Shown here piece after piece: positions 1-19,200 of a stretch of 36,858 nucleotides of DNA. This DNA comes from a virus. Position numbers and translations under genes: made by a program. How positions within the stretch are numbered: the first letter of the stretch is position 1; every line of letters starts with the position of its first letter. The stretch is from the IMG/VR virus record IMGVR_UViG_3300008267_000363, positions 1 through 36,858 of that record, one strand, 5' to 3'. Under the pieces are notes generated by a model. It saw only the letters and a program-made list of their open reading frames with translations, was not told the origin of the DNA and did no database searches.

Positions 1-519
1 CACCAGAGTAGGATATGCACCGTGCCGATCAGTTTCTTGCTGCCAAGTGCTTGAGAACTGCGGGCTGCAATAGCTGCATGCAAGGTTGCAAACATTGTTA
101 AAATTAACTTCCACGTAACTGGGAATAGCATCTTCATCTCCTGTTGATTTTGTAATTACTGAATAATCTTTGGCTGCCCATGGCTCACCTGATCTATAGT
201 GTCTATCACTCAGCTTGTTGTGTGCTTCCATGTTCCAGCAATAGCTGCACTCTGCAGGTTTGATGCCTGCTAGCATGAGTTTGCGCTGTTCTTTCTTGTG
301 CGGAGTGTTATGTAATGCTGCCGGATTACGTCCAATGTCTTCGATGGGTATTCGGTGCAAGGGCGGATGATAGCATGAGTTGTTGAGACCTGTGGGCAGG
401 TGCAAGCTGACCTGTTTCCATTTGGCAAGACATAACGCAGGACCCAGATCGGCCTGCATTTTTTCTGCGGCTGTTAGGAAATGGCTTTTGTTGTCAGTGG
501 CTCCATCGCCTTTGTTCAT
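1..519 (-). CDS. Radical SAM enzyme with N-terminal auxiliary-cluster (twitch/SPASM-like) region, partial (3' end off window)
   Basis: An uninterrupted reading frame of 173 codons runs from the ATG at 519-517 off the left edge. The signature CX3CX2C motif of radical SAM enzymes appears as VCNLACSYC (Cys144, Cys148, Cys151). These cysteines bind the 4Fe-4S cluster that cleaves S-adenosylmethionine. Before it lie four more cysteines (Cys30, Cys49, Cys91, Cys94, the last two in ECSYCW), placed as in twitch or SPASM auxiliary cluster domains. Here they precede the core, an arrangement I associate with radical SAM proteins of marine phages. The start codon overlaps the stop of the upstream glycosyltransferase-like gene (TAATG), so the two are probably translationally coupled. 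The substrate is unknown. Peptide or sugar modification would fit the gene neighbours but is inference. The C-terminal half of the enzyme lies outside the window. Confidence 0.85.
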   Translation of the reverse strand, partial: MNKGDGATDNKSHFLTAAEKMQADLGPALCLAKWKQVSLHLPTGLNNSCYHPPLHRIPIEDIGRNPAALHNTPHKKEQRKLMLAGIKPAECSYCWNMEAHNKLSDRHYRSGEPWAAKDYSVITKSTGDEDAIPSYVEVNFNNVCNLACSYCSPQFSSTWQQETDRHGAYPTLV

Positions 520-1445
520 TACCAACCTTCTTGTGCTCGAATAACATCAATCTCTCGAACCATGATGCCCTCATTGTGCCAGTTGCTTCGGTAGTGATGC
601 TTGAAAAACTTGCTTTGTTCTGCTTCCAGCGCAGCCATGGGAAGATCCAGTTGTTGGTCCAGATCTTCTGCCACACGTCCGGCTAACAATCTTGGATCAC
701 TGGATTCCACAGTCTTCCATAAGTCGGCTAGTGCATCAAAGTCCTGCACCTGAGTATGATCCCAGTTTGTGAGCATGGTCATGTAGGTGCCTTGTCTTGC
801 ACCTGCCATGCTCCAGTAGCCGTGATCAACATCTGCACCTATGTTGTGCCAGATGGTAAGGTGGTCCAGGTTGCGTTGATGCACACGATCCTTGAACTCT
901 GCCAGTGTGGGCTTGGCACCACGATTCAGGCACATCTTTACACCTTCACGGAATCCTGCACGCCAGGCATGAAAAGCAGATCCATTGGGATAGGTAGTTG
1001 AGTAACAGTCGTGCATGGCCCAGTATAAGGGATCAAAACAAAACTCCACTTGTGTTTCTGTGCGGCCATCAGTGGCTTCGTGTGTACGCATGCGGTTCAC
1101 AAAAGTTTTTGTCCAGGAACTCAGTCCACCATTGCCGTACATGAGCCCGTTGACGGCGTTTCTTGCTCGCCAACGAAACACAGCAGAGTCATAATCAGCT
1201 GTGGGAAACTCCAGGGTTTGATTGAAGAATTTGGCGTCAGGCATGTTGTCGCCGTCAATCAAGATAAATCGTTCGGTGGCACTGGCAGCTGCCGCAGCCT
1301 TGTGTGCTGCATCTGATCCTCGAACACCATCCACACGCTGAGCCCATGGCACCATGTTGCGTATGATTGCCCAGTATTCTTCTTTCTTGGGTTCGTCGAA
1401 TGTCAAAAATACTACATCTAGGTCTGCTATATCAATTTGTTTCAT
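519..1445 (-). CDS. Glycosyltransferase-like protein with DGDN motif
   Basis: This encodes 308 residues from the ATG at 1445, which precedes [15 protein letters not shown], a typical first strand of a GT-A glycosyltransferase fold. An in-frame ATG at 1484 would add 13 residues, but they lie within the upstream gene and look unlike protein N-termini. An ILIDGDN motif about 60 residues further on resembles the DXD metal/nucleotide-sugar binding site of GT-A enzymes, and a later aromatic-rich segment ([13 protein letters not shown]) is probably part of the acceptor side. The gene overlaps its upstream neighbour by 14 bases and its stop overlaps the radical SAM start. I recognise it only as a glycosyltransferase-like family seen in marine phages. 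Donor and acceptor are unknown. Confidence 0.65.
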
Positions 1446-1800
1446 AAGTTTTCTTTGTCCATTTTTGATGGTGCTTGTGCTCACTGACGATTACAGCGAC
1501 ATTGCGAATATCGCAAGGGGATCCAGAGTCAGCAGGCACAAGTTTTGTGGTTGTTGTCCACACACGTTGTATTAATTTTCCGTCACGCACACACACATGC
1601 ATGGGACTGCGAGCAAAAGTCACAGCGTCTATTTCAATGTATGTACCTGGTAGATTATCCATGCTGTAAAATAATGGATTGCCATCCAGGTCGTGATACA
1701 ATCTATAACTTACTGCATGCGCAACAGGTTCGTGATGTAATATGTTCCAGAATTCAGTCAAGTCCACGGTGCCACTCCTTGACATTGTAGTGGAATGCAC
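1432..1800 (-). CDS. Conserved small phage protein, function unknown
   Basis: This encodes 122 residues. The N-terminal half has the pattern [11 protein letters not shown], then [21 protein letters not shown], then YIEIDAVTF. It is a compact, aromatic and acidic style seen in uncharacterised marine phage proteins that accompany glycosyltransferase genes. It has no signal peptide, membrane segment or catalytic motif that I can identify. The first 16 codons overlap the end of the upstream glycosyltransferase gene and the last 14 bases overlap the next one. A start further inside (GTG just before DLTEFW) is possible. Close packing in a glycosyltransferase and radical SAM unit suggests it serves the same pathway, perhaps as a binding partner, but that is inference. 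Confidence 0.6.
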
Positions 1801-2572
1801 CTGACTGTGCCACGGTATTTACTCGCAGCAGACAGTCCCGGTATTCCCAGTTGAGTTCACGTGTCCAGTCTTCGGTTTGTGTGCCTGCTACATGGCGTTT
1901 CATGTGTACTATGCGCGGATAATCAGCAAAGGGCATGGTACACTGTTCGGCACCAACGATGTTTGCTGCCATGGCATACACCACATCAGTAGATGGCACA
2001 TCTTCGGGAAACTTCAACAGTTTGCGATACTCGCTCCAGTTTTCAAAAATGCTGCGCACAGTGTTGAAAAACGTCTGAGATGTTTTGCTCCTGCGCCAAT
2101 AGGTAATGGCATTGTACACATCTGGCAGATTGTTGTTGTCAAACACCTGTCGATAGTGGCGTGTTTTTGCTGTCTGATCTTTCCAGTCTCTACAGCCAGT
2201 TGACACCACAACGTCGCGATGACGTAGCATGTTCCACCAATGATCAATTGGACTAGTAATCAGCATGTCTGCTTCTAGTTTGATAGTTTCGCGAAACGGA
2301 GTCTTGTCAACCACTTGCCAGTCATTGGCATAGGGATTGGTATTCAAGGGCTCACTCAATTGATGAACATAGTTGAACAAGGTGTTGCTGATGGCGGTTT
2401 CATCGGTGAGTAAACAGATTTGTGCATCAGGGTGCCAGTGTCGAATTGTTCCGGCAAGTGTGACCGCACAGTCAACATAATTGACTTGACTGCTATTTTG
2501 TGCCACAATCAAGTAGCCCTGTTCAGCTATGGGTCGCAATGATGTCTCCAAGATGTTTTTTGCCCATGGCAT
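1754..2572 (-). CDS. Glycosyltransferase-like protein (second of a tandem paralogous pair)
   Basis: This encodes up to 272 residues. After about 17 residues comes [10 protein letters not shown], a typical first beta strand, then [15 protein letters not shown] and [15 protein letters not shown] takes the place of the DXD-containing strand of GT-A glycosyltransferases. The same landmarks occur in the same order in the upstream gene, so the two are likely paralogues from an old tandem duplication. The ATG at 2572 lies 50 bases inside the upstream gene. TTG or GTG codons just after that gene's stop (around 2500-2510) would give a protein starting at the conserved strand, so the true start is uncertain. 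In EAD the first acidic residue is Glu instead of Asp, and activity should not be assumed. Confidence 0.6.
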
Positions 2573-3335
2573 GAAAGTCTACGCCATTTAGAGAACAGTA
2601 CAAATTTCCTCCATCAGACGCACGATGTGTGATTTTGAATGTTTCGTCAGCCTTGGCAATTTGTTCCAGGTCATACTCGGGCAGTATACTGGCCAGGCTC
2701 CAGGGAATACTGTCAACTCTCCAGGTGCCGCCGCTGATGATTCCCAGGGCGATGCTCAGTGCAAAGTCATTGCGATAGGTACTTTTTTGAATCTTGTACA
2801 AGGCTCTGTAATGGTCCCAGTTGTCTCGCACCATGTGCATGCAGTCAAATATGTAGGCTGCGGTGTTGCTCTTGCGAAACATCATCACAGTGGCCCAGCT
2901 CATGGGTAGTCGATGTTCACCAAATGTGTTCAGTTCATCTAGGTATCGAGATTTTGCAATATCATATGCAAGATCGTGACACATGAAATCACGGTTACTG
3001 TCCAGCACAAATTTCAATTGCGAACTGGCCACCACATAGTCCGCATCCAGTACCAGTGTTTGTTCCCAGGGAGTGAGAGCGTATGCATCTACTCTACCAG
3101 CATTGTGCCAGGTCACAGTTGAGTTGTAGTCTTCAAAAAATCTTGTGCCACCTGATTCAGGTTCTGCGTAGATAACTTGATCAAATGTTTTGTTCAGTGT
3201 ACTGTCTTGACTATTGGTCACAACAGCAACTGGTATGCCCAGATGGTGGCGAATACGACCTGCACTCCAGGCGGCCATGCTCACATAGTCAGTGGCTTCG
3301 TTGTTGAAGGCAAATATCAGTGCGCCGCAGGTCAT
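2523..3335 (-). CDS. Glycosyltransferase-like protein (first of a tandem paralogous pair)
   Basis: This encodes 270 residues. CGALIFAFNNEATDYV forms the first strand and helix, followed by IPVAVVTNS. TLVLDADYVV has the DXD motif (Asp-Ala-Asp) expected of a metal-dependent GT-A enzyme using a nucleotide sugar. Further on, a conserved block around MVRDNWDHYRALYK is matched in the downstream paralogue by [13 protein letters not shown]. The start codon overlaps the stop of the upstream small gene (ATGA), indicating translational coupling. The protein is cytoplasmic by appearance, with no signal peptide or membrane span. Possible targets are a virion protein, a host surface glycan or DNA. The sequence does not decide between them. 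Confidence 0.65.
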   Translation of the reverse strand: MTCGALIFAFNNEATDYVSMAAWSAGRIRHHLGIPVAVVTNSQDSTLNKTFDQVIYAEPESGGTRFFEDYNSTVTWHNAGRVDAYALTPWEQTLVLDADYVVASSQLKFVLDSNRDFMCHDLAYDIAKSRYLDELNTFGEHRLPMSWATVMMFRKSNTAAYIFDCMHMVRDNWDHYRALYKIQKSTYRNDFALSIALGIISGGTWRVDSIPWSLASILPEYDLEQIAKADETFKITHRASDGGNLYCSLNGVDFHAMGKKHLGDIIATHS

Positions 3336-3637
3336 CGTAGTTGACGTTGTTGATCAAGTTCCACCAGCCATGCATTCATTTGCTCTTGCCATAACTGCAT
3401 GGCCAGGCCTCGTAGCTGTGCAGGATTGACCTGTACCGGAGTTTCATACAGGTCCAATACCACTGCATCGCCCGGAGGTACAGTGGCCAACAATACCAGC
3501 AGTTCAGGATCAGCACGCCACATTCCGCCGCGGTAGGCAAACAACATGCGGGCTTGGTATTTTTCTTTTAGTACGCGGCGAGCAGCCACATGATCAAAAC
3601 GTACTCGTGCGTGGGCAATTAAAGCATCAGTATCCAT
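3332..3637 (-). CDS. Conserved small phage protein, first gene of the glycosyltransferase/radical SAM unit
   Basis: This encodes 101 residues, with no domain I can name. It has a basic N-terminal helix (ARVRFDHVAARRVLKEKY) followed by MLFAYRGGMWRADPELLVLL, a pattern I have the impression of seeing in uncharacterised marine phage proteins. The C-terminal third is helical and charged. No Shine-Dalgarno sequence precedes the ATG. A perfect TATAAT lies only five bases upstream, so the message may be leaderless. Its stop overlaps the next gene's start (ATGA). As the lead gene of a six-gene unit it may be a small structural or accessory protein for the enzymes. This is inference from position. Confidence 0.6.
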   Translation of the reverse strand: MDTDALIAHARVRFDHVAARRVLKEKYQARMLFAYRGGMWRADPELLVLLATVPPGDAVVLDLYETPVQVNPAQLRGLAMQLWQEQMNAWLVELDQQRQLR

Positions 3638-3642
3638 GCTGT

Positions 3643-3671
3643 ATTATACGACAAATCCAGATAAAAGTAAA
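3643..3671 (-). promoter_or_regulatory. Sigma70-like promoter of the glycosyltransferase/radical SAM unit
   Basis: On the minus strand a TTTACT box (3666-3671, four of six matches to TTGACA) is followed after exactly 17 bases by a perfect TATAAT (3643-3648). Transcription would start at or next to the ATG at 3637, giving a leaderless message, which fits the absence of a ribosome binding site. The -35 box overlaps one arm of the terminator hairpin. TATAATAC also resembles the T4 late core TATAAATA in six of eight positions, so late sigma use is an alternative. Confidence 0.5.
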
Positions 3672-3688
3672 GGGGCAACTGCCCCTTT
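3669..3688. terminator. Symmetric hairpin terminator between tail operon and modification unit
   Basis: AAAGGGGC, loop AACT, GCCCCTTT is a perfect eight-base-pair stem with a four-base loop. It is followed by T-rich sequence on both strands, so it can act in either direction. It starts 4 bases downstream of the stop of the 322-residue tail protein gene (stop at 3692-3694), exactly where the long minus-strand structural operon would end. Confidence 0.8.
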
Positions 3689-3691
3689 TGG

Positions 3692-4660
3692 TTAAGCTGT
3701 TGTGGCAAGCACAGTAGGTGTTCCCCAACTTGCGGTGGTTAGGTATGTGCTTGATGGTGGAGTATAGGTGCAAATTGTGGTGGGTGCTGTGCCAGGTGTT
3801 GCGCCAGAACTTGCGGTGCCGCCCGAAATCGCATCTCCGTCAGCAGCACTCCAGACTGTGGTGAATGTCAACACAGTAGATCCTGCATTGAGAGCCACCG
3901 AATGCTGAATAAAGTTTGCGGTATACGGAGCCGTATCAGCAAACTGCTTGTATATAATTGTGGCTGCTGCCCCGGGTGTTAGAGCATAGAAACCAGTGGC
4001 TGTGCTGAGTGTGCTGGGTGTGCCTGTTCCGCCAATTTTGGTTGTTCCTGTGTAACTAACTGCTGCAATGGTGTGGGCTGCTGCTGCACCTGAAAAAAAG
4101 ATTGCGCCAGCCAGTGTGTTGGCCAAGTCATTCCATTCTGGATCGCCCAGGGCGCCTGTGGCAGTTTTACTGGTCTGCAATTTGATCAGGCCGCCGCCAT
4201 TGAAGAAATGCCTAGCTGCTGCTGCGCTGGCAAATGTTACTGTGTTGGTAAACGTGATGGTCCAGGTTGCTCCTGATGTGGCCAATAGCTTGCTGTTGAC
4301 TCCGGTGTAGCCCGTGAATTGTGATCCCACAGCCACAGCATTGTTTCTGTTGGCGGTGATGTTGGTTAGATCTGTGTTCAAGGCTGCTAGCACAGCAATC
4401 AAGGTGCCTGTGGTGGGTGCTGTTCTTGCTGTGAGAGTGGTACCAGTTTGACTGCCCATGCTTGACAAGGTGTTGACCAGGCTGGCCCAGTTTGTGGCAG
4501 TGACTGTACCGAGTGCGCTGACTGTGCTCAGTGCCGATTGCCCCCAGCCCTTGTCTCCAGATCCTGTGCTCCAGATGTCATTGACATTGGCACCTGCAGT
4601 GGTGCTGACAAAACCGTTGTAGTCGGTTGCTTGAATTAATCCGCCTGATGAATATGCCAT
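3692..4660 (-). CDS. Tail/virion protein of marine T4-like phages, function unknown
   Basis: This encodes 322 residues, very rich in Ala, Thr, Gly and Ser, with few charged residues and no cysteine-rich or enzymatic motif. It is typical of beta-structured virion surface or tail fibre proteins. The N-terminus (MAYSSGGLIQATDYNGF) and a central segment (AAARHFFNGGGLIKL, then WNDLANTL) look like the conserved parts of a protein family common in marine myoviruses and prophages. It is the last gene of the structural operon, just after the tail fibre and just before the terminator. An AGGAAA ribosome binding site lies upstream of the ATG. A receptor-binding or fibre-associated role is inferred from position and composition. 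Confidence 0.6.
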   Translation of the reverse strand: MAYSSGGLIQATDYNGFVSTTAGANVNDIWSTGSGDKGWGQSALSTVSALGTVTATNWASLVNTLSSMGSQTGTTLTARTAPTTGTLIAVLAALNTDLTNITANRNNAVAVGSQFTGYTGVNSKLLATSGATWTITFTNTVTFASAAAARHFFNGGGLIKLQTSKTATGALGDPEWNDLANTLAGAIFFSGAAAAHTIAAVSYTGTTKIGGTGTPSTLSTATGFYALTPGAAATIIYKQFADTAPYTANFIQHSVALNAGSTVLTFTTVWSAADGDAISGGTASSGATPGTAPTTICTYTPPSSTYLTTASWGTPTVLATTA

Positions 4661-4674
4661 TATCTATTTCCTGT

Positions 4675-6423
4675 TTAGTTCTTGATTGTTACAATAGCTT
4701 CAATTGTACCTGATTCAGGGGTGGTCTTGTCAACCAGACTTCGCCCAATTACATTGAATGCTGTGGCTTCACCGGGTTGTGCTGCTCTTGCAATGCCGTC
4801 GCCGGCCGCAACCAATCGATCACCCTTGCGGATGTATCCAGTAACTTTGACAGGTACACGTCCAGTCATGGCCACTTTGGGGTGGGTGTCGTCCTCGCCA
4901 GCGCCACCATTCATGGTATAAGCTGGTCTTGTACTTATGACACCAAATACTTTTTCACTTAAAGCAGTAAGACTTCTTGTGATTTCCTGGGTACCGCCCA
5001 GTTCAACCACTGTGCCTGGCTCTAGTAATTCATCAGATGCAAAACGTTCCGCAACGTCAGCGTAAAGTGCTGTGGTGGCCTGCGCAAACACCTGGTTAAA
5101 GTAGTTGCTGGAACTACCAATGTTGCCTACTGCATTTGTTCCTGTTTTGGCAATCGAAGCCACACTTACCACGTTGGCATAAACTGTGCTGGTGTCGATG
5201 ACCACAACGTTTGATACACCACCAACATTGAAGTTGATGTTGCCGTTGGTAACACCAACGTTGCCTTCTGTTGTGCCGTTCACAAACTTGGTAACACTAA
5301 CGCCCAGGCTCAAGCCTGTGAGTTGACTACCGTTGCCCAGGAAAAATGTTCCTGCTATGTTGGCTGCACTGGAAATATTGCCAGTCACACTAACTAGACC
5401 CGTTGATCTCAAGTTGCCCGAATCAACGTTGCCGCTGGCCACGATTGACACACCTGATATTGCAGCAGCACTGATAACATTGCCTCCGCGCACATTGCCA
5501 ACAGCAGTTACCAGGCCGCCTGTGTTGATATTGCCGCCGGTGACATTGCCTGTTGCTGATACTAGGCCGCTTGTTAACAAATTGCCGCCGGTGATATTAC
5601 CAGTAGTGGCTAACGGACCGCCCGGGGGTGCAATAACATTACCTATAAAGTTTAGACCAGTAACATTTCCAGTAGCACTGACTATGCCAGCAGTTAGAAT
5701 ATTGCCGCCAGTGACGTTGCCAGTAACAGAGTTGAACCCTGTAATCAACACACCAGTGGGCTGAATAATAGCAGTGGTAGCACCGCCAGAAGTAACAACA
5801 ACGTTGCCTGTGTTTCTGACATTGCCGGCCATCACAGTGTCTGCTGAGTTACTGATTGTGATACCTTTGTAGATTGTGGGGAACAGTGTGGAAGTAGGAG
5901 CAGCAGCAGTAAAGTTTGCATCTTTGCTCACAATAGCAACACGAGTACCAGCCACATACAAGCCGGTTACATAATGTGGTGTTGCTGTGTTGTCATTAAC
6001 AGTTTCAGGAATTGCGCCAGCTGTACCTTCAGTTGATGTAAATGCAGGGCCCACAACAATAAAACTAGAACCAGTATATACTTTGACCTGCTGATTTGTG
6101 GTATCATACCACAAGTCGCCTGTTACATTGCTGGTTGGTGCAGATGCACTAGAAGTAGCAGCACTAATGGTTTTGAACAGTGTGCCATTGTAGACTTTTA
6201 ACAAGAAATTGGTTTTGTCCCACCATAGTTGCCCTGTTAGTGGAGCAGCAGGTGCTGTGGTATTTGAACCGCTTTCCAACAAGTGGATAAAGTTTTCGTC
6301 CAAAAACTCTCCGTAACCTGCATAGTTTTTGCCCACCAGTGTCATGCTACTAGCAGTATTAACTGTGCCGTCGTTGACGGTAGCAAAAACTGTACCGTCG
6401 GTTAGATTGATTGTATATGCCAT
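4675..6423 (-). CDS. Tail fibre protein with repeat shaft and likely self-processing C-terminal domain
   Basis: This encodes 582 residues. Residues about 30-130 hold a phage tail motif twice: GQLWWDKTNFLLKVYNGTLF and GDLWYDTTNQQVKVYTGSSF. Residues about 214-370 are a series of short degenerate repeats built on TGNVTGGNxxTxGxVSA, most likely a beta-helical trimeric shaft. The C-terminal 130 residues (YADVAERF, VFGVISTRPAY, MTGRVPVKVTG, IRKGDRLV) resemble the Peptidase_G2-like intramolecular chaperone domains found at the ends of phage fibres, which help trimerise and then cleave themselves off. That is family-based inference, and I cannot identify the cleavage residues. Upstream lie an exact TATAAATA and an AGGAAA ribosome binding site. 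The protein is probably the host-recognition fibre. Confidence 0.75.
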   Translation of the reverse strand: MAYTINLTDGTVFATVNDGTVNTASSMTLVGKNYAGYGEFLDENFIHLLESGSNTTAPAAPLTGQLWWDKTNFLLKVYNGTLFKTISAATSSASAPTSNVTGDLWYDTTNQQVKVYTGSSFIVVGPAFTSTEGTAGAIPETVNDNTATPHYVTGLYVAGTRVAIVSKDANFTAAAPTSTLFPTIYKGITISNSADTVMAGNVRNTGNVVVTSGGATTAIIQPTGVLITGFNSVTGNVTGGNILTAGIVSATGNVTGLNFIGNVIAPPGGPLATTGNITGGNLLTSGLVSATGNVTGGNINTGGLVTAVGNVRGGNVISAAAISGVSIVASGNVDSGNLRSTGLVSVTGNISSAANIAGTFFLGNGSQLTGLSLGVSVTKFVNGTTEGNVGVTNGNINFNVGGVSNVVVIDTSTVYANVVSVASIAKTGTNAVGNIGSSSNYFNQVFAQATTALYADVAERFASDELLEPGTVVELGGTQEITRSLTALSEKVFGVISTRPAYTMNGGAGEDDTHPKVAMTGRVPVKVTGYIRKGDRLVAAGDGIARAAQPGEATAFNVIGRSLVDKTTPESGTIEAIVTIKN

Positions 6424-6441: not shown

Positions 6442-6449
6442 TATTTATA
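6442..6449 (-). promoter_or_regulatory. T4-type late promoter (exact TATAAATA)
   Basis: The minus strand reads TATAAATA, the T4 late promoter core recognised by the gp55 sigma factor. It ends 18 bases before the tail fibre ATG, and the AGGAAA ribosome binding site lies between them. The element contains the TAA stop codon of the upstream 201-residue gene. It would allow the fibre gene and the gene after it to be transcribed separately from the operon. Confidence 0.65.
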
Positions 6450-7050
6450 CAGCATTGATATTGCTCAATGTCTGAATTCTCACTGTGTAATCAATTTGAA
6501 TCTGGCGATTCAAACTCTTTTGTACTGGGTGGAAGATCACATGAGTGATCAAGCGCAAATTATCAGCAGCACCATTCCAGGCCTTGAGGCCCAGTTCGTC
6601 AAACACAAACTCACCGTTGAAATTGGTTGAGTTGTCAAAGGCCTGCTGTTCTGCGGGCTCGCCGTAGTCCAACAAACATGTCACAAGAATGTCAGTATAA
6701 ACATTGCCTGCTGTGTGTAGCACAGTCATTTTGTTGTTGGTGGGGTCAGTGTCTGCTGCTGAATTGTCATCCACTACCTTTTGATAGGTTTGGTTGTACA
6801 AGTCTGCGTTTTGTCCTGTGGTGTTTGGCGGCAAATACGTGATCACGCCAGTGGGATCAACAGAACTTCCGCCGTTGCCAAATGCCATTTGATAGATGTA
6901 TCCCAGGTTACGATCGGCTAGACTTTGAGCCATGGCCACAGAGATATTTTCGTAATGGATAGCATTCTTTTTGTCTACCAAAACTTCACCTGTGGCAGGA
7001 TCAGTGATCTTGATAAATCCTTCAATTTTGCACAATCCTGGAGTTATCAT
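6445..7050 (-). CDS. Conserved tail-module protein of marine T4-like phages, function unknown
   Basis: This encodes 201 residues. The N-terminus, IEGFIKITDPATGEVLVDKKN then AIHYENISVAMAQSL, leads to MAFGNGGSSVDPTGVITYLPP. Near the C-terminus comes FVFDELGLKA, followed by LITHVIFHPVQKS and IQIDYTVRIQT. I recognise the pattern as a conserved virion protein of marine myoviruses sitting next to the giant baseplate protein, but know no experimentally assigned role. The beta-rich composition and position between giant protein and tail fibre suggest a connector or fibre-attachment subunit. The ATG overlaps the stop of the 49-residue gene upstream, whose C-terminal half resembles this protein's N-terminus. 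Confidence 0.65.
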   Translation of the reverse strand: MITPGLCKIEGFIKITDPATGEVLVDKKNAIHYENISVAMAQSLADRNLGYIYQMAFGNGGSSVDPTGVITYLPPNTTGQNADLYNQTYQKVVDDNSAADTDPTNNKMTVLHTAGNVYTDILVTCLLDYGEPAEQQAFDNSTNFNGEFVFDELGLKAWNGAADNLRLITHVIFHPVQKSLNRQIQIDYTVRIQTLSNINAV

Positions 7051-7215: not shown

Positions 7216-10200
7216 TTAAAAGCCTCGCAAAAACCTTGCGGCCTGGGTGTCTGTGTCTTGCAGTGCAATACCGTTGCTGGCTTCGCCCACGCCCTGTTGG
7301 TACCAAGTTACGCCGTGACGTACCAGGATTGTGACTTCTGCCCCTGCTGTCGGTGCTTCTAGTGGGGGATGAACATTGCCATCAACCACAAAGTCCACTG
7401 CCAGCGGATCATAGTCAGTCACAAACCAACGATAACGACTGACTGCTGTGGTGTCGCTGTAGGCATATTGTCGGATTCCGCCCACATAAACTTCCACAGC
7501 TGGACGCTCGCTGCTGGAATCCAAGAAGTCATCAAACAAGATACTTGGTGCATAGAACACGCTGGTTGTGCCATCACCCAGTGTGGAATCGCTCACAATA
7601 TAGTCCTGATACTGTGCAGGCAACAAGTTGCCACGACCAATATCATATACCTCTGCGCCACTCAAATGAGGCGCTGCTGCTGTTCCTGTTGTACCACGCA
7701 TCAGTCCTGAGATGGTGTTGAGAGCTGTGTTTCTTTCGCGATACATGATACGCTCGCCGTCAATAGTTACTGCTCCAAAAACGCCCTGAGTCAAGTTGGG
7801 ATCGCTCAGGGCCGCAGCATTGACCACATATGCAATGTTGTCTGTGGCTGTGAGATTTTGTGCCAGTGTTGTGGTTGTTGCATCAGTAATTCTGTAGGTT
7901 GCTTGAACACCGCGCATGTCCTGAAACACTCTAAATGTCATGGCTTCCGGCACTATGCTGTTGGTGAATTCTGTAATTACCAGCACCTGTGCTGCGCCAA
8001 TGACTCCGGTGGCCAGGATCAAGTAGCCGTTTTCAACCACATAATCTGCACCTTCAAACAGTCTATATCCATCCAGTGTGACCCACAGTCTGCCTGCGGC
8101 AACTGGATCACGTTGCAGGTAAAAGTCGTTGTTGGCTATGAGCACACCAGCTGAATAATCATAAGATCCTGGAGCTTCAGACACTGCACCTTCGTCATAT
8201 GTGGTGCTGTCATAGGGTTCGCTTACTGTGAGCCCAGTAAAGATTGGTCCCACAAATACCAGGCTCAGTGCGTTTTGTTGTGCAGTATCGTTCCAGGTAG
8301 TAACAGCAACAACGTCGTCAATATTGAGTGCAGACACAATCTGCAATGTTTGACCAACCACATCAAAGTCTGCTTCAGTATTCACTGTGATCAAAATTCT
8401 TGATCCGCTGGCAGGTGGTGATGTAAACACCACTTGTCGTCCAGGTGTGTTTGAACCTGTCCAGTTTGTGACGCTGAATGATCCCACAGTTGCACCCACG
8501 CTTTGAACCTGCAGGATGTTGTCAACCCAGACCACAACGTCTGTGGGAGCATTGATAATGTTTTGTTGATATCCACCTCGTTGCGGCAGTCCAAAGCTCA
8601 CACTTGAATCATCACCCAACCATTCAATGCCCTCTGCTGGCTGCAGACGCAGTCCGTTGCGAGTAACAATCATGTTGACTGAATTGGTGCCGCCTGCACT
8701 GTTGGTCAGGGTGAATATTTTTGTAGTGGCTTGTGAAGGTGTGACCACAAAATACTGCACCTGTGGTGTGCTCCAGCTGTAGGAAACCGTTGCTTTTCCT
8801 GTGCCGCTGCCAATGCCGGTTGCAGTAAACACAGTGCCCACAGTGTTTGCCGCAGCACCCACAGCAACAAAGTTGGTGGTGCCCACAATAGAAATAGTGT
8901 ACTGTTGACCAATTACAAAATAGCCAGCTACTACAGTGGTCAAGCCCAAAGCAGTTAACGAAATACCTGCTCCGGGGCCGGGACTAGAGCCAAGATCCAC
9001 TTGTGATTCCAGTGTGGGCACAAACAGCAACCAGTATGCCACATCAGTAATGGCCACACCCTGTGGTACTGCCTGGATTGCTCGATAGTAGTTGCCACTG
9101 TTGTTGACCACGTCTAGTTTGGCATAGGTGCCAAGAACATTCCAGTTAGCACTGTCTATATATGGTTCCCAGGTAACTCCGCTGATGGCTTCACCGTTGA
9201 CAAACACAGCCATGATATTGATTTCTGCGCTGTTGACCGGAATAACAACTGTTTGCCCAGTAGTACTACCTGCATAGTTGGCACGATACAATTGATTGCT
9301 GCCACCTAGTTCGTACACACTGATGTTGATACCATCGCCGTCAGCCACTGTCAGCAGAGTAATTGTTTGATCTTCCCACTCAACTGAATAGTCTACACCG
9401 CTGGCAAGATCTCGTCCGGTAGTTTGATTGCTGACCAGAATCTGTACCGGATGCTCGACTACTCCGGCCCAGCTGTAGACATCGGTGACTGCTGCTTCAT
9501 AGGTGTAGCGTATGCTGGTTATCTGGAATCCATGTCCATCACGGTTCCAGTCTGCGCCCGGACGAGTATACACTCGCATGTCTAGTGTGTCAAATTCAGC
9601 ACCGTTGACCAATTCTTCAGGAGAATGTCCTTCGTACAGTCCAATAAACTCACCACCCGCAACATTGATGTCAGTGGGCAAGGTACCCAAGGTTAGATCT
9701 GTAAACTCGCTGGTGTAGTCTGCATCCACTGCCAAGGGATCGCGCAGGAAGTAGTCGCCGTAAACTTGTACGCCAGGATAGTCGACTCCATCAATCAAGA
9801 GTGGTAATTCAAGTCCAGGTTGATTAACTCCCGGAACATACAAGCCCATGGTACGATCAACACCTGTTAAGCCATAAGGTCCAGTGCCGTAGTTGAACGT
9901 GGCAGCATTGACCAGAGTCCAGTCTTCAAGATTGAATGTTGGTCCCACAACCGCAGTACTGGTACTGCTGGCAGCTTGCCATACACGGTCATCGTAACGA
10001 ACCAACTCACCGTCTTGATATGTTCCATTGGTGTTCCAGTCTCTCACGTCAGAGAAATACTGGAAGCGATCATAACGAATCACAGTACGGAAAGATCTTG
10101 TCAGGGCATAAGATTCTATAGTGGTCGGAACTGTGGCTGCATTGTATACCTGGCCACTGCCTTGGCCGTTTACCACAGCATAGTATTCTGCACCACTACC

Positions 10201-13200
10201 GTTACCGCCTGTGATTGTGATTGTGGGAGCGGCTCGATATCCAGATCCTGCTTGATCAATAGTAACTGCTACCACTTGGCCCAGACTGTTGATTACTGCT
10301 GTTCCGGTTGCTGTCACACCTGCATAGCTCAGGGCTGCTGTGCCATCTGCTTGTGATCCTGTAGTGAACAACGGAGCAATTGTTCCAGTAACGCCGCTGG
10401 AGGTTACTGTGTACAAATTATCAACGTAGAAGATTTGTTGTCCTGCTGTGATTGGGGTAGATACTGTCCATTCTGTACCAAATATCACAGCTGGTGGTGT
10501 GCTGTAGCCAGATCCTTGATTGACCATGAGAGTGCTGTCAACGCTCAACCAATGATTGTTGTACCATTGTGAATAAGGCCAGGTGTTCCAGATTGTGCTG
10601 GCAGCAGATGCGTCACTAGCAGCGTTGATACTTGAGTTAAACGCAGTACCGTGTTCGTATGGCAACAATATCGGGCTGATGTATTTTGGAATTTCCAGAG
10701 TTGTGTCATAGTAGGCCGGCACATCAAAGTCAGTCAAGTCGCCTTGAGAAATATCAAAACCAGTGTACTTGAGATTGAACTCGCGCACCTGCACATGGTA
10801 TGGCTTGACTTCTTGAATGTAGTCACTCACAAATTCTTGATTGTCACGCACATAGTTTTGGTACGGCAACAGTTGACGAATTCTGTGATCCACGTCAATC
10901 AAGCTGGTTTTTACCAGCCACTCAGGTGCAGAGAATTCGCTCAACACAAAGTTAAACATCAGTACCAGAGCTCGATTGCGCTCAATGGCTAGATCATCAA
11001 CAAACAGTTCTTGATTGATGGCTTGTATAATCTTGCGGGTTTCTGTTACAGGTTCTTGATCATAGTATTGTGCATCAAACACTTCGATATCAAATCCAAA
11101 ACGTCCCACAGCATAGTCCCAGAGTTCACTGGAGAATGCAATTGTGCCATCTTGTAGGCCCACACGTTCATAACCAAGGTCAGTCAACAGATATATTTCA
11201 TATTTGCCTTGTGCATTGGCTGTGACCTTGACACTGCTGCCCACAGGCACATTGATTGCGCCCAGAGCAGAGTACGTTACCACTTGTGTTGTAATTTTGG
11301 TACTGGAATTGTAGCCCGGACGATACCAGTCAATGTAACTCCAGTAGTCTGGGGTATTGTATCCTTGTACGCGAGTAAGAATCAATACTCGAACACCAGG
11401 AGTGGTATCGCTGGCCGACACAGTGTAAATTGTCCACAGTCCGCGATTGAGGCTGTCTGTTACCACCAGGTACCGGTAGCCCAGAGCCACAGTGTAGATA
11501 TTCTGAAATCCCAGAATTTCCAGGTTGGCAACTCTCAGATTCCACAGCCCAGAGTTGGCAGTTGGTTCAGGTTCTGAAGAGTTCAACAGATTGAAACTAC
11601 GGCTTTCGCTGATGGGATACTGTGCCAGCACTGTGTTGGCATGAGTCAGATAGTTGCGCAGTGCTTCAAAGCGGTCTGTAAACATTGACTGGCGTGGGCG
11701 GAATTGCACACCGTATTGTTCAGCTGGTCCTAGATTGGGATCTGGAACTTGGTTACCAAATGTGTCAACTCCGCAGAAACTGTCTTGTAGTTTGCGATAC
11801 AGGTTGTCACTCAAGAATCCATTGGCACGATCTTGTGCAATTAATTCATATTCAGTATGCACGTTGTCATTGGTCAATTCTCGATCAAACTCAATACTGA
11901 TCACAGTGTCACTGGCTTCAATGTAGTCCCCAGAATTGTACAACGCAATTGTACTGGCGTTGATTGGGGCCATGAAGGGGATGCCACTGGCCTTGGGATC
12001 AGCAATGTAACTGGCCACAGTGGATGCTGGCAGAGTCTTGTTGATTTTTGTGGATGTTGTGGTAATGCCGCGCACCCAGAAATAGTATTCTGTGGCAAAC
12101 GTACCATCCTTGGTCAGTCGAGTGTTCACAGTGTAGGACAAAGACGACAACGGTGTGCCTTCTCCTGTGTAGTTAGCAGGAGCCACTGGGCTCACAATCC
12201 ACTGATACACATCAACAACACTGCCTGGGAACAACTGACTCCAACGACGGCTGGCATACACAATGCTGTCTTGATTGGGGTCAATAAATCTTACTGACGA
12301 AATATCCCACCAAATTTCGCCCACATGATCTGTATTCCAGGTGGTGCCACGAATGTTTGTTGGTCCCACGTTGTATGCTGCTGGATCAATTGCACCAATG
12401 TAGTCTATGTTTTGGCGAGCTGCACCAAGAATCTTGCCTTGCAGTGGATTGATAAAATCCAAGAACTCAGATGTTGCTCTGGTTACTCGATCGTACAAGA
12501 ACACAGAGTTCAGCAATCTCACGTCTACCACAGGTTGTTGCTGTTCCAACACAGTCCAAGCAAGAGCACGAGTGGGATTTTCAAACACAAATACTGCGCC
12601 GAAATCTGCTGTGCTGTCTCCAGAATCATTCTTGGGGGCGCCGACCATGAGCACACCAGATGTGTAATTGACTGCTGTGCCAAACCCGTCCAGGGGCTGC
12701 ACATTGCTGTTGGTAATTTGATCGCCAAACACAAATTTGCCTGGATTGTTTATGTTGGATGTTGAGCTAGGCAAGTAATCGTATGTGTATACTTTAATTG
12801 CACTGTTGTCTATACCAACACTGGAACCAAACCCGCTGAATTCTACTGGGTAAGGACTGAGAATAGTTTGTGTCCATGCATATGTATCAAACCCCAAGGT
12901 AGTAAATGTTGTTCCAACTGTGCCGGGTGCTACGGTAACTTTGTCTAGAGCTGCGGCTGCTGCCGAGTTCTTGACTCCAATGGTCAAATATCCAGTGGCG
13001 TCAACTGTGGCCAACACATTGGGTACCGTCACATTGATCTGTGCAGCAAGAGCACGTACTTCCACGCTGGCTGCAACTGTGGTAGTCGACACCACAGTCC
13101 AATAAGCAGTGTTGGTTATCAATGTTGACACTGGTACAGCCTGGGCTGCCACATAAATTGTAGTGGTTGTGGTCACAGCATTGTAGACCACTGTGTTTTT

Positions 13201-16200
13201 GTCGTAGGTTACAGAGTTGGACCAAGCCGCAGGAACCACAACATCCATGTCATTGATACGAATAGTATTGCCGCTGGTGAGATTTGCATTGGCCACTGTG
13301 TTGGTAATTGTGCCATAGATTTTGCTTTGATTTACAAAACGTTCAACCACACCACCTTTGTAGATTTGCACACTGCTTTGAGGCTCGCCTATGTACAAAC
13401 TGCAATTGTTGGCACAAAGGTCTAGTGCCTGGCCAAAGTTTGAAAAATCTGCTACTGTCTGTTGATCAACTTGTTGTAGTTGTTGGAACTGGTTGGTTTC
13501 AATTTCAATTATGTCACCAATCTGCAGATCAGCATTGATAGTCACCACATCACCAGCAATGGTGAATGAGTTGGCTGCATTGATCACGCTGTCGGTTTGA
13601 TTGATCAAGAATTGATTGTTCACAATCACACTAACAGGACCAGTTGGGGTACCACCTAACACTGTGAATGTGATGCTGGATGTGTCTGTGCCGTAGATGA
13701 ATCGTTGTACATTGCGATCAAACACATACACTGTGCCTGCTTCGGCTAGAGCATCAATGGTACGGTACGGTGCACCAATCATGACCTGACGACCATCTGT
13801 GCTGCACGATACTGACTGTCCAAATCTATCACCGGCAGTGAGTCCACCTGTGACCGAGGCGGTGTCAATGGTGTCTACATATTCAAAATAGCTGCCAGCA
13901 AATGCTACCACAACGTCAGTTGATATACGTGCAGTAATAAATGTTACTGTGGTACCTGAAAACGTGTAGTCAATATTGGGACGCCATAGATCTTCGTTGA
14001 CCTTGATACTGAACGAATATATGCTGTCGACAGTGAACAAGCCCACGCTATTTCCACTTGCATCAGTGTCATTGGCCAAGTTGAATGTTGCGTCATTGTA
14101 GGGAATCTGGAAGCTGTTGTATCTTGCAAATTCAATTAGTACCGAAGCTAAAACTGTTCCTGTGCCTGTGCCCGCTGCTGTGGCCACAAATTCAACACCA
14201 ATTGTATTGCTGGCTGCACCAATTAGAGTGTAATTGGTATCACCAACTGTTAAAATTGTGTAGATTTCCCCGGGTACAATTGCTGTTGCTGTAAACACAC
14301 CTGGTGGTGTTGTAAGTCTTACTTCACTGAAGTTATTAACAATAGTATAAGTTGCGCCGTAAGTTTGAATTTGTCCATTAAAGGTCACTTTCAATTGGCT
14401 GTTGTTATTAACTTGTATCTTGGAGTTTATATTATAAACTGTGGTTGCGCCGTCGGCTGTGGTCTTGATTGATTGATTTTCCCAGTCAACCCGACCATAT
14501 GCATGAACTGAATTCAATCCAGGTGCGCCAATATACATCCAACGTTCGTCGAGACTCACAACCACTGAGTAGCCAAATTCTCCTGCGCCTGTGAGCAATG
14601 TGCCATAACCAGAGGGCTGTGTCAACAGTTGCCATTGTGCATAAGGAATAACTCCGGGCTGGCCCAGTGCTGGATCACGATATATCACAGAGACATATCC
14701 ATTATTGGCTTGGCTGCCTGCTCCTAGACTCTTGCTGGCGCCAGCTGCGGCCCAGGTTTGATTTCCAAAGTCCACAGCATTACCGTATCCGCGCACACCG
14801 GGCACATCCAGGGTTAGTATACCATCCCCGCTAGATATTGGGCTTACGGGGCTGTATTGATCGCCATAGTTCTTGACATACACATACACTGCACCTGTTT
14901 CGGTTCCTGATCCAAATCCATATTTGGGACTACCTACCAAGGCGGCCAGGCGATTCTGTGCCTGAGCAATGCTGACACCATATTGTTCGCCTGCATCCAG
15001 CAGCACAGGGTTCAATTCCACAACATCCGAGAATACCGAATTCTTTTGCAGCACTTGCCATAGCCCGTCTCCGTTGTCGTCTACCCAGACCTTGGCGCCG
15101 GGCAAGATGTTGTTGGCATAAGGTAAATTGAGCACATCGCTGGCCTGTGCCACACGCATGGTCTTGAGTGTGAATCCCAGCCCTGTTCCATTGGCCACAA
15201 CTCTGTCACCAGTGAATGCAAACGCAATGTTCACTGTGGTCAAATTGGCCACACTTAACACCTGGTAAACTCCGTTGATCTCTATGTCAAAGAACTTGAT
15301 GATCAGTTTGTCGCCAGCGGCAAGACCGTGTTGAGTACTGAAAATTACTCTGCTGGTACCGTCTAGGTTGTCGCAAACGTGCTGTATGATTCCAGGCACA
15401 GCCTGGGCACGATAGATGTTCCAGTCGTAGTTGTTAATCTTGGCTACCCAGACACTGGTACCAACTTTGATTGAGTCAATGTTGGCGCTCAAGCTGGCAG
15501 AATCCACAATGTCAAACACTGTGATATCAGCATCATCCAGGTTCACATAGCCGGCAGTGGGCAGGCCAATGTCAGTGGGCAGAGTGGTGGTGGTTGGTAA
15601 AATGTCAGTGCTGGTCAACTTGTAGCTTTGACGCCACACATCACTTAGCAAGATTTGTTGGTCAGCTTCGCTAACTTGTTGTGGTACTACCACTTGCACT
15701 AGACTAGGGTTGGCATCAAGCAATGCACGGTTTAATCGCAGTTCAAAAAAGCTGCGGTTAGCGTTGGCACCGTATACAGCACGTTGGACTGCCCAGTTTT
15801 CATAGATGTCATAGTCAGCAGCTTCTTTGCCCAGGTTGGCCTGTTTGAACAATTCAGCAGATAAAATTGTGCCTTTTGAGCCTAAGAATTGACGGTACAC
15901 ATTGACCTGACTCACGTCGTCAAGATTCAGCGCCGCCATGTACTGTCGTGGATGAAAACCAATCAGGCCGTAGCTGAGTAAATCGTTGTCAGTTTCAATA
16001 TTGGCTGCATTGATGTCGTAGCTGTTGGCCAATTGATTTGCTTTGTTGGCCAGATTAGGTAACAATCCCAGCTCAGTTTGTGTGTAATCGCTTTGAGTCC
16101 AGACATCAAAATCAAATGTTTCTGACGGTTGTACAATTTTTAGTGCAGACCAATAGACATTTTTATATTTGACAATCTGACCTTTGGTATACACTCGCAA

Positions 16201-19200
16201 ACCGGTCCATTCTTCTACATTGTCTTGGTTGAGAATAAAGCCCGGGGCATCAACCGACCCATTCCAGTCACCGCTGGTCACAGCCACAAGATTCAGTCTG
16301 CTTTGTCTTGCTCCAGTGGTCGGATCGTATATGAGATCACCAAACACACTTTGATTGCTCAGCACAATCATGTGTTCATAATTGGTAAAGCGCATGTTGA
16401 TAAAGCTGATACTCTGAGTACTCAAGGGTTCAATACTAAAGGAGTTGCCCAGGCGTACAACATTTAGAGTTCGAGTGGGAAGTTCTCTGGAATTTTGATC
16501 CAACAGCAAGTTTTCAGTGGTCTCTGTTCGTATACTGTCAACCACAGCCTGTGCTTTAGTCACACTGAGTTTACTTGCCAAGGGATTGATGTTGATAATG
16601 GCATCTGTGTCCCAGCCTTGTTGGCTCCAGTACAAGAATTCGTTGACCATTCTTGGCCAGTCTAGCACATAACCATTGGCCATGTTGTCAAACGCAAGCC
16701 CTTGTTGCTCGAGCAGTTTACCATAGCTCAACAAGAAGTCTGCTACACTGGTTTCATTGCTGAACACAAATCCATATGGTACTTGTGTTACAGTATCAGT
16801 ATAAAATGTTGGTACACGAACTGTGATGCCACCCGAACTGTATGTTTGTAACTTGCCGTTGGGATAACTTTGCAGCACCTTAAAATATGGCTGTGCATTG
16901 CCGTACCCAAACACAGCATATCCGCCTGTGACTTTTTGTACAGCTACGCTGGAGTAAATGATCTGATCAAAAGGCTGATTCTTGTACAACAGGATATCGT
17001 AGCTTTCGTCAGGAATCATCAAGGCGGTGTTGGTTGAATTGGGGCTGGACTTTTCAGTAAACAACTTGATGTATTGTTTGTCTGAGAAAGATGCCATGCG
17101 ATAGCACAGTCTTACATCTAGACTCTTGAGATCAGCTGTTAGTAGTTTGGTTGAATCAACTCCGGTCTGGCGATTGTAATCGACCAACCAGTTGATGTAA
17201 CTGGCTTTTGACACACCGTCGCCATATACTTCTACGCCGTTGGCATCCAGTCGGTAACGATCGTTGTAGAGATACTGTTGATAGTCTTCGTTGTAGCGAT
17301 ACAAATCACGATCAGCAAACAACGCAAAGAATTTTGCAGGGCGTGTTACTGCCAACATGTGCATGACCGAGAATGGATATGAGCTGGAATTCCACCATGA
17401 TGCTTCCACCGGGCCGCCATCGCCAAGAGTCCAGCTCTTGACAAATTCTGTAGCTGGATTGTAGTTTGGAGGCAATGCACCCACAACACTGTTGAGTGGA
17501 CTTAGTAATTCACCTTCAGATCCTGTGGGGATTACGGGCAACATGCTGGGGTATGGACCTGAGCCATACTTTTCAAACCAGATGCCTTCACGCTTGGGTC
17601 CGGCTACCAGGCTAGCAGCTCTGGCAAACTCAGGTTTGAAGTATGGTGTGATAGGATCAGCAACATAACCGGCTGCCAGGTCATCCCACAACACCAAGTT
17701 ATCACTGGTATAAGGTGCAGGGCCATAGGTATCTTGCCACCATGTGGGTTCTACGCTGATGCCCAGCATTTCCCAGGGAGTCAAACTTGGTTGTTGAGTA
17801 TCGTAGTAGTATCGATAGATACCGCGCCAGGCGCCCAGCAAATTTTGTTTGTCCAGTCGACTTTGTGCCCGGCTATAGTTCCAGGTGAGTTCGTTGTTGG
17901 CTCTGTAATTTTGTTGGCCGTAGTCTAACCGGTTCCAGCCACAATAGCTCAAAAAGTCACTAGCAAAAATAGTATTGATTTCTTCGAAGCTGTAACCAGT
18001 TGAACGAAACTGGCCGGGCAACACATCTTCTACTACAAGTGGTACTGGGTTTCCGTCCAGTTTGAGATTGTTGTAAATTCTTGTTTCAAATTCCAACAAC
18101 ACCGCATCACGGATATCACCAAACACTGGAGTGGTACTACCGTCGTGTCCCAGTACAAAATTACTGGTACCGTTACTGGTCACTTGCGGTATAACTGCTG
18201 GTTTCCAGGCCGGATACAAACCAAGTTTGGTTGGCGTGTTGGGTACAAATGAGCCGTATGTGGCCGAGTATTCATTGATGGTAACTACATCACCAATGGT
18301 CAACGTACTCAGTATTGTGATGCGTGGACCGTCAATGGCCACCGTGTAATCAACTCCACGAGTCAACAGTTGATCATTTAGATATACCAGCAAGCCAAGA
18401 TAATTTGCTGAAGTGTAATTGTACACCTGCACAGTATCAAATACTTGAGTGGTAATAAAACTCACAGTGTAGGCGTTGCTGTCTGTGATAACTCCAGCAG
18501 GCAACATGTCACTCCAGTAAAACGGTTGATTATCAAGTTTGCCCAGTGTCACTGACTGCATGGCAGTATCCAGCACCTGTGCTGTGGTGTCAAATCCAAT
18601 GTTCTGAGACAGCACAGCGTCCAGCAATTGTGCTTTGAACTTGATATACTCGCGGCTGTTGTATTGCAACGACGCAAAAATATTGTATTCAGGGCTGCGC
18701 ATAAAGTAGCCGGCCAGAGTCAGCGGCGCACTTTGTTGCAGAATCACCAGACCGTAAGGAACAATGTCTCCAAGATCTCTAGTGTTGTTGGCACCGTTGA
18801 CTGGTCCACTCAAGGTTGTCAAGTTTTCGCAAATACTCTGATAGTGTGTGCGAATTGTGCCCAGGGTGAATGAGCTTGAGTTAGCATTGAGCGGATTTGA
18901 TTCAAGGTTGTTGGGCACTTGATAAAATGCCACCTTGCTGGTTTGATCACTCAGCACCAGCACCTCAATAATATCTCCAAGAACATACGTGCCCAACAAT
19001 GTGATTGTGGTACTGTCTGCTGTGGTCACATAAGAGTATGTTGAAGGATCCTGAAATATGCTACCAACATATATTTTAATAACTGGAACAGCAATAGAAG
19101 TTTGTACAATTGGCTCTACATCAAGTTTAAGTGTGGTAGCAGCATAAGAGAACTTAAATTGCTGATAGATTTGCTGCTCTACTGCTGCGGTTTTCCATCC

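Follow-up and report, generated by a model that had tools for sequence, protein, structure and literature searches.

The closest described system is the host recognition cluster (HRC) of the pelagimyophages, a tail-region island with glycosyltransferase (GT) genes and radical SAM cassettes, in which GT8 is the commonest family; the HRC is described as nonsyntenic and hypervariable, located between VrlC and the neck gene gp14 (PMC7029224). A T4-like genome of 183 kb, TARA_ERS488813_N000010, carries 12 radical SAM genes and an A-type Fe-S carrier, and no GT linkage or fixed array is described for it in the available text of the source (PMC5332604). Here we analysed the virus record IMGVR_UViG_3300008267_000363 over its positions 1 to 36,858 (36,858 bases, hereafter the window), which is the DNA of a T4-like myovirus as judged by matches to baseplate wedge, gp25-like, hub, late sigma factor and SbcD-like proteins. 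On the minus strand, to the left of the baseplate genes, three tail-side genes (t3, t2 and t1) and a terminator are followed by a unit of six genes, sm2-GTc-GTb-sm1-GTa-rSAM1, encoding two small proteins, three GT-like proteins and a radical SAM enzyme. As in the HRC of T4-like aquatic phages, GT and radical SAM genes are located here at the tail region; unlike in the HRC, the core order is fixed, and five orthologous radical SAM genes and a carbamoyltransferase gene are present, with variable genes inserted at some places. Related large records resemble the TARA genome in having numerous radical SAM genes together with an A-type Fe-S carrier. PF11649, used for the gp14 boundary, matched nowhere, controls included, and hence was uninformative. 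Cassettes of GT and radical SAM genes in islands of this kind are already in print; the new part is the fixed-order array, of which no description was found in the open-licence PMC literature.

We interpret the six genes as the start of an enzyme operon with its own transcription, in which GTc, GTb and GTa would transfer sugars, an array of twitch radical SAM enzymes would edit the sugar (by dehydrogenation, epimerisation or a related reaction), and a carbamoyltransferase at the end would cap it. That this operon builds a glycan and edits it by radical chemistry, at the host-recognition locus on the tail side of T4-like phages, has in our judgement an even chance of being correct, and it is probable that the enzymes act in one glycan pathway. 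The GT core is kept across distant uncultured T4-like lineages, and the full five-enzyme array was seen in one clade (12 records).

All six frames are on the minus strand, and their starts were revised by comparison with relatives. The first gene of the operon, sm2, lies at 3332..3637 and is overlapped by 4 bases by GTc (2523..3335), which is in turn overlapped by 17 bases by GTb (1754..2539, TTG start). Gene sm1 (1432 to about 1761, with an uncertain start that may extend to 1800) overlaps GTb by about 8 bases, and GTa (519..1445, ATG at 1445) overlaps sm1 by 14 bases. A TAATG junction leads into rSAM1 (1..519), which is cut by the contig end at base 1, leaving 173 of about 465 residues. Such overlapping junctions would fit translational coupling. 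The TTG start of GTb (2537-2539), a weak start overlapping the end of GTc, was found to be used in 156 of 157 loci. A sequence-only reading of the window had proposed a six-gene unit with overlapping genes. The six genes and their overlaps are real, with starts partly corrected from relatives; the five genes from sm2 to GTa form the constant part, the sixth being less tightly bound, and the apparent limit at six genes is that of the contig, as large related records carry on into further genes.

Synteny was determined in viral contigs, using the best 80 of at least 600 stretches matching GTa and the best 80 of 99 matching GTc; these loci are the closest relatives, near-duplicates included. Wherever the flank was long enough, t1, sm2, GTc, GTb, sm1 and GTa were all found together, without exception (77/77 GTa loci and 64/64 GTc loci). 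Junctions of no more than 30 bases were found between sm2 and GTc in 159/159 loci, GTc and GTb in 160/160, GTb and sm1 in 118/153, and sm1 and GTa in 149/153. An rSAM1 orthologue abuts GTa, as in the window, in 46 of the 138 loci that have rSAM1. The possibility that six separate genes stand together by chance was rejected through this synteny.

The same arrangement extends to distant relatives. A divergent GTa query gave 12 loci, all with the order t3-t2-t1-sm2-GTc-GTb-sm1-GTa; in three of them (L197-L199) no radical SAM gene clearly follows. A distant sm2 (L182) and a GTa of another lineage (L191) were each used with 80 kept loci, and a GTa-GTa' fusion (L188) with 65 further loci, some of the loci being cut by their ends. 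With the L182 query, GTc was present in 80 loci, t1 in 79, GTb in 74, GTa in 65 and a radical SAM gene in 55; with the L191 query, sm2 was present in 70, GTc in 75, GTb in 72, t1 in 66 and a radical SAM gene in 64; and in the fusion group a radical SAM gene was present in 57 of 65. Five of eight inspected loci from these sets have one to three unlabelled open reading frames (ORFs) between GTb and GTa. A scan of metagenome-assembled genomes (MAGs), whose bins are weak evidence of the host, found 16 loci, one of which is L188, with the fusion on a contig carrying 12 tRNA genes. Eleven of the 16 have GTa after sm2, GTc and GTb, with GTa cut by the contig end in L190 and L196; t2 was recognised in 10 of these 11 contigs and t1 in 8. 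In MAG-binned contigs, the order sm2-GTc-GTb-X-GTa is kept down to about 40% GTa identity. The genes were thus not scattered or independent in the near relatives and in most of the distant ones, and were partly independent in the fusion group.

Four Bdellovibrionia contigs reading as chromosomal (L185, L189, L193 and L195) also contain GTa homologues. L195 has DnaB and ribosomal protein genes near its homologue, by reading of translations, and in the other three a GTa pair stands beside a radical SAM gene similar to rSAM3/rSAM4 of the array described below. This adjacency argues that the two work together, and the apparent partnership of GTa with radical SAM enzymes is found away from phage tails too.

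Among 50,697 phage records, tblastn gave no match for GTb, rSAM1, GTa, sm2 or the distant versions of sm2, GTa and GTc; GTc and sm1 of the window were not queried. The tail-region protein t3 matched 60 cultured records, and among the 30 listed the highest identities were to Sinorhizobium phage Phosso (56%) and Agrobacterium phage Atu_ph07 (53%), followed by jumbo phages of Salmonella, Klebsiella, Escherichia and others (43-46%). In the stretches examined of GAP32, XbC2 and Vibrio 2.275.O, no radical SAM cassette is annotated after t2.

To characterise the GT-like proteins, AlphaFold models were made for GTa (66 sequences) and GTb (70 sequences). The GTb model (mean pLDDT 93.5) has glycogenin as its first-ranking match by both Foldseek and VIA-align, with Z 16.1 and rmsd 3.5 over 198 aligned residues. 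It differs from the glycogenin/GT8 enzymes in its low identity (12%), in an invariant E89-x-D91 in place of D-x-D, and in having no Pfam match at E 1; a His is invariant in GTb as well. GTc is a paralogue of GTb by profile homology only (hhalign probability 99.0, E 9e-18), with D97 and D99 (D-x-D) and H255 invariant across 84 sequences. At E up to 1, Pfam gave nothing for sm2, GTc, GTb, sm1 or GTa, five of the six window proteins. Because there is no match to a Pfam GT family, we describe GTb and GTc as working like GT8 enzymes and do not file them as members.

GTa has a GT-A-like N-terminal half and a helical C-terminal half (model pLDDT 92.6). Residues 2 to about 159 resemble GT-A enzymes and related nucleotidyltransferases (VIA Z up to 9.2, rmsd 3.2, 141 aligned), and a DGDN motif is invariant. 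Its best Foldseek match in the PDB is the glycosyltransferase 2p6w of PBCV-1 (E 2.8e-4), whose entry title refers to glycosylation of the major capsid; this match has 13% identity over 194 columns with rmsd 6.1, and PBCV-1 is another kind of virus. In a viral library, two long proteins of uncultured phages matched GTa (E 4.4e-14 and 3.9e-13). GTa was rejected as a homologue of GTb, since hhalign found nothing (probability 0.5), and absence of a GT-A fold was rejected for GTb by fold and for GTc by homology. Of the three GT-like enzymes proposed from the sequence, GTb is confirmed by its fold and GTc by profile homology only, and GTa is supported by a middling fold match.

The rSAM1 fragment matches the N-terminal-twitch radical SAM family NF033640 (E 2.4e-40) with 138.9 bits, below the curated cut-off of 170 because the gene is cut by the contig end; its Pfam matches at E up to 1 are all sub-threshold, Radical_SAM among them. 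The full orthologue in the related record L167 scores 312.2. The CX3CX2C motif (C146-C150-C153) is invariant in 46 rSAM1 sequences and present in the window fragment. Four further N-terminal cysteines (32, 51, 93 and 96) are invariant in the orthologues, which confirms the extra cysteines noticed in the first reading, and are consistent with a bound auxiliary Fe-S cluster.

Beyond rSAM1, stretches around the array were fetched from 12 large related records of 192-347 kb. Radical SAM profiles matched 5 to 18 times per record, some matches being pieces of one gene, and all six radical SAM proteins scanned in L167, the one record scanned, score 260-405 on NF033640. All 12 records share the order rSAM1-c1-rSAM2-rSAM3-rSAM4-rSAM5-c5, some of them with additional genes in between. 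Measured against L167, the radical SAM orthologues have identities of 65-88%, apart from one at 46%, and identity falls as low as 34% for c1 and 39% for c5. The carbamoyltransferase gene, c9, is in the fetched stretch in 10 of 12 records and was found in 12 of 12 by genome search. The array is composed of five orthologous radical SAM enzymes in fixed order, one gene of unassigned family and a carbamoyltransferase. An A-type Fe-S carrier family is present in 9 of 12 records. The variable genes ahead of rSAM1 include, by reading of translations, SGNH-like, sulfotransferase-like and dTDP-glucose dehydratase-like genes. A conserved small Lys/Arg-rich ORF of about 33 residues was observed just before the carbamoyltransferase gene in five of six starts inspected (L167, L168, L170, L174 and L176).

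No PHROG was found at E 0.01 in any of the 59 members of the sm2 alignment, and sm2 has no PDB match at E 1. In the alignment of 61 sm1 sequences, only one member each matched two weak PHROG families, and there is no credible PDB match for sm1 (best E 0.055). As a guess, sm1 and sm2 might be accessory or substrate-docking proteins.

The operon appears to have its own promoter. In the window, on the minus strand, a TATAAT box lies at 3643..3648, the hexamer starting at -11, which would put the transcription start at the first ATG or beside it, and a candidate -35, TTTACT (3666..3671), stands 17 bases from the -10, inside the tail of the intrinsic terminator closing t1 (3668..3690, read from sequence). 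Among 115 distinct sm2 upstream regions, a TATAAT hexamer with no more than one mismatch begins between -13 and -11 in 113, compared with 27.5/115 in shuffles; in control upstreams, it was found in 0/106 for GTc, 3/93 for t2, 3/94 for t3 and 36/112 for t1 (none exact). The hexamer starts at -12 in 78 of the 113, a position that would place the start at the A of the ATG and suggests a leaderless messenger. The best spacer to a TTTACT-type -35, mostly with 2 mismatches to TTGACA, is 17 in 111 of 113 regions with a -10, and a terminator-like hairpin, scored by an ad hoc pattern, was found in 103 of 115 regions. The shared promoter and insulating terminator proposed earlier are both recovered in the relatives. 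The -35 box of this predicted leaderless promoter (window 3643-3671 and relatives) was observed to overlap the terminator tail of the upstream operon.

The promoter of t2 is of another type. An exact match to TATAAATA, which we take to be the T4 late box, is located at 6442..6449 on the minus strand as a T4-late-type promoter of t2; it stands no more than 70 bases from t2 in 55 of 103 loci (shuffle 0.95), and as close to sm2 in 0 of 114. These different promoter types suggest that in this clade the operon and the tail module are probably under different polymerase forms. The operon is thus attached to the tail operon by position, as first described, and probably not by transcription. The sigma-70-like promoter type of sm2 is not universal across lineages: of 15 distant sm2 upstreams, five have TATAAT at -12/-11 (exact in L183, L190, L192 and L199, one mismatch in L197) and ten do not (L181, L182, L186, L187, L191, L194, L200, L201, L205 and L207). 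L191 has an exact TATAAT at -24, and L181 has an exact TATAAATA before sm2.

Pairwise distances over 87 loci were compared between genes. GTc, GTb and GTa correlate mutually at 0.65-0.71, sm2 with the GTs at 0.54-0.59, t3 with the GTs at 0.36-0.53, and sm1 with t1 at 0.50 and with t3 at 0.53. L006 is a mosaic, with identity to the window of 99% in sm2, 94% in GTc, 66% in GTb and 52% in sm1. By these comparisons, the enzymes evolve for the most part as one unit, and their exchange is to some degree independent of the tail genes, as the mosaic in L006 shows.

Several observations weigh against a tail-side glycan pathway. The match of GTa to GT-A folds is middling, also by the alignment tool's own note. 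In 92 of 138 loci rSAM1 is more than 400 bases from GTa, with genes between, and no rSAM1 orthologue follows in 9 loci that extend at least 3.5 kb beyond GTa. Gene sm1 was unrecognised in the L182, L191 and L188 sets (0/80, 0/80 and 0/65; 0/225) and recognised in 1 of 11 MAG core contigs, and in the fusion group of 65 loci, many of them short, sm2 was present in 26 and t1 in 25. Between t1 and the GTs the correlation of distances is weak (r 0.34-0.40), giving no sign of t1-GT coevolution. As the promoter type is unlike that of t2, expression may be early, and modification of host or DNA would then fit as well as virion decoration. Carbamoyltransferases are also described as modifying hydroxymethylcytosine in phage DNA (PMC8670742).

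The dedicated modification pathway of the sequence-only reading is supported by fold, family and strong synteny; it might decorate the tail, the capsid or a host glycan. The chance that the product is carried by a tail or baseplate protein such as the Ser/Thr-rich t1, rather than by the host surface, is close to even, perhaps slightly below. The constant tail-side position favours the tail, against which stand the type of promoter and the weak correlation of t1. Taken to its full extent, the proposal is an assembly line of three GT-A enzymes, five twitch radical SAM enzymes that are not equivalent to one another, and a carbamoyltransferase, which would build a radically edited and carbamoylated glycan on tail proteins of the phage itself; this we put forward tentatively, as possible but somewhat doubtful. 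If true, many uncultured phages would build an elaborate virion or surface glycan using a chain of radical enzymes, on whose chemistry no report was found in the open-licence PMC literature, and part of the tail-side islands now seen as hypervariable would become a stable functional module. The conserved order also defines a set of about a dozen enzymes and would offer a direct route to the function of N-terminal-twitch radical SAM enzymes.

The operon might instead remodel a host surface glycan (O-antigen-like) early in infection and block superinfection, the tail position only marking a host-recognition island. Modification of the host O-chain is what Zaragoza-Solas et al. propose for GT8-rich pelagimyophage islands (PMC7029224), and the sigma-70-like, not late-type, promoter agrees with it, as do the genes reading as GT2 that adjoin the GTa homologue of L195. 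However, a fixed order at tail genes over deep divergence would be unusual for an exclusion gene, and the late-type box stands before sm2 in the distant locus L181; we consider remodelling of the host surface unlikely.

Radical modification of a tail protein peptide, as in RiPPs (ribosomally synthesised and post-translationally modified peptides), to which the GTs would add a minor or separate step, is suggested by the nearest cultured relatives. Phosso and Atu_ph07 resemble the window in having several radical SAM genes after their t3-t2 homologues, at the same site, and these show weak matches to SPASM peptide maturases. They differ in that the enzymes are peptide-maturase-like and resemble rSAM1 only weakly (best profile E 1.4e-5 among 26 proteins; NF033640 E 7.3e-5), and in that the cassettes lack the GT set, with no GTa, GTb, GTc, sm1 or sm2 profile match below E 0.1. 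No Cys-rich tail peptide is found in t1 or t2 of the window either (1 and 0 Cys), and such a role is improbable for the window operon. Beside these radical SAM genes in both phages (L178:19306-20226 and L179:20098-20988) is a protein of about 300 aa, 306 aa in Phosso, ending in repeated CHxSCH motifs, a candidate for a radically modified tail peptide.

Hypermodification of DNA, with the carbamoyltransferase and GTs acting on a modified base, would have a precedent in a virome carbamoyltransferase acting on 5-hydroxymethylcytosine; the same source reports carbamoyltransferase domains flanked by GT genes in unmodified contigs too (PMC8670742). The carbamoyltransferase occurs in 12 of 12 large records, but the thymidylate synthase family PF00303, which makes the hydroxymethyl base, occurs in 1 of 12, the records being possibly partial, and DNA as the target is quite improbable. 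A diffusible saccharide-like small molecule made during infection is very improbable: radical SAM, carbamoyltransferase and GT genes together resemble saccharide-antibiotic pathways, but the tail linkage is steady, and no pointer to export or self-protection turned up, no search having been aimed at either.

The three neighbouring tail-side genes, all on the minus strand, are as follows. Gene t1 (3692..4660), upstream of sm2, encodes the Ser/Thr-rich protein (29%), for which the PHROG search gave nothing above chance and whose structural type is taken from the neighbourhood only. Gene t2 (4675..6423) encodes a virion structural protein (phrog_14394, E 1.5e-11; phrog_6427, E 6.9e-13), and t3 (6445..7050) encodes the conserved tail-region protein (phrog_11259, E 1.4e-73) that served as the marker for the nearest cultured relatives. 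Between a gp6-like gene and t3, at 7216-22188, is a gene for a virion structural protein of 4990 aa (phrog_10938, E 1.1e-288).

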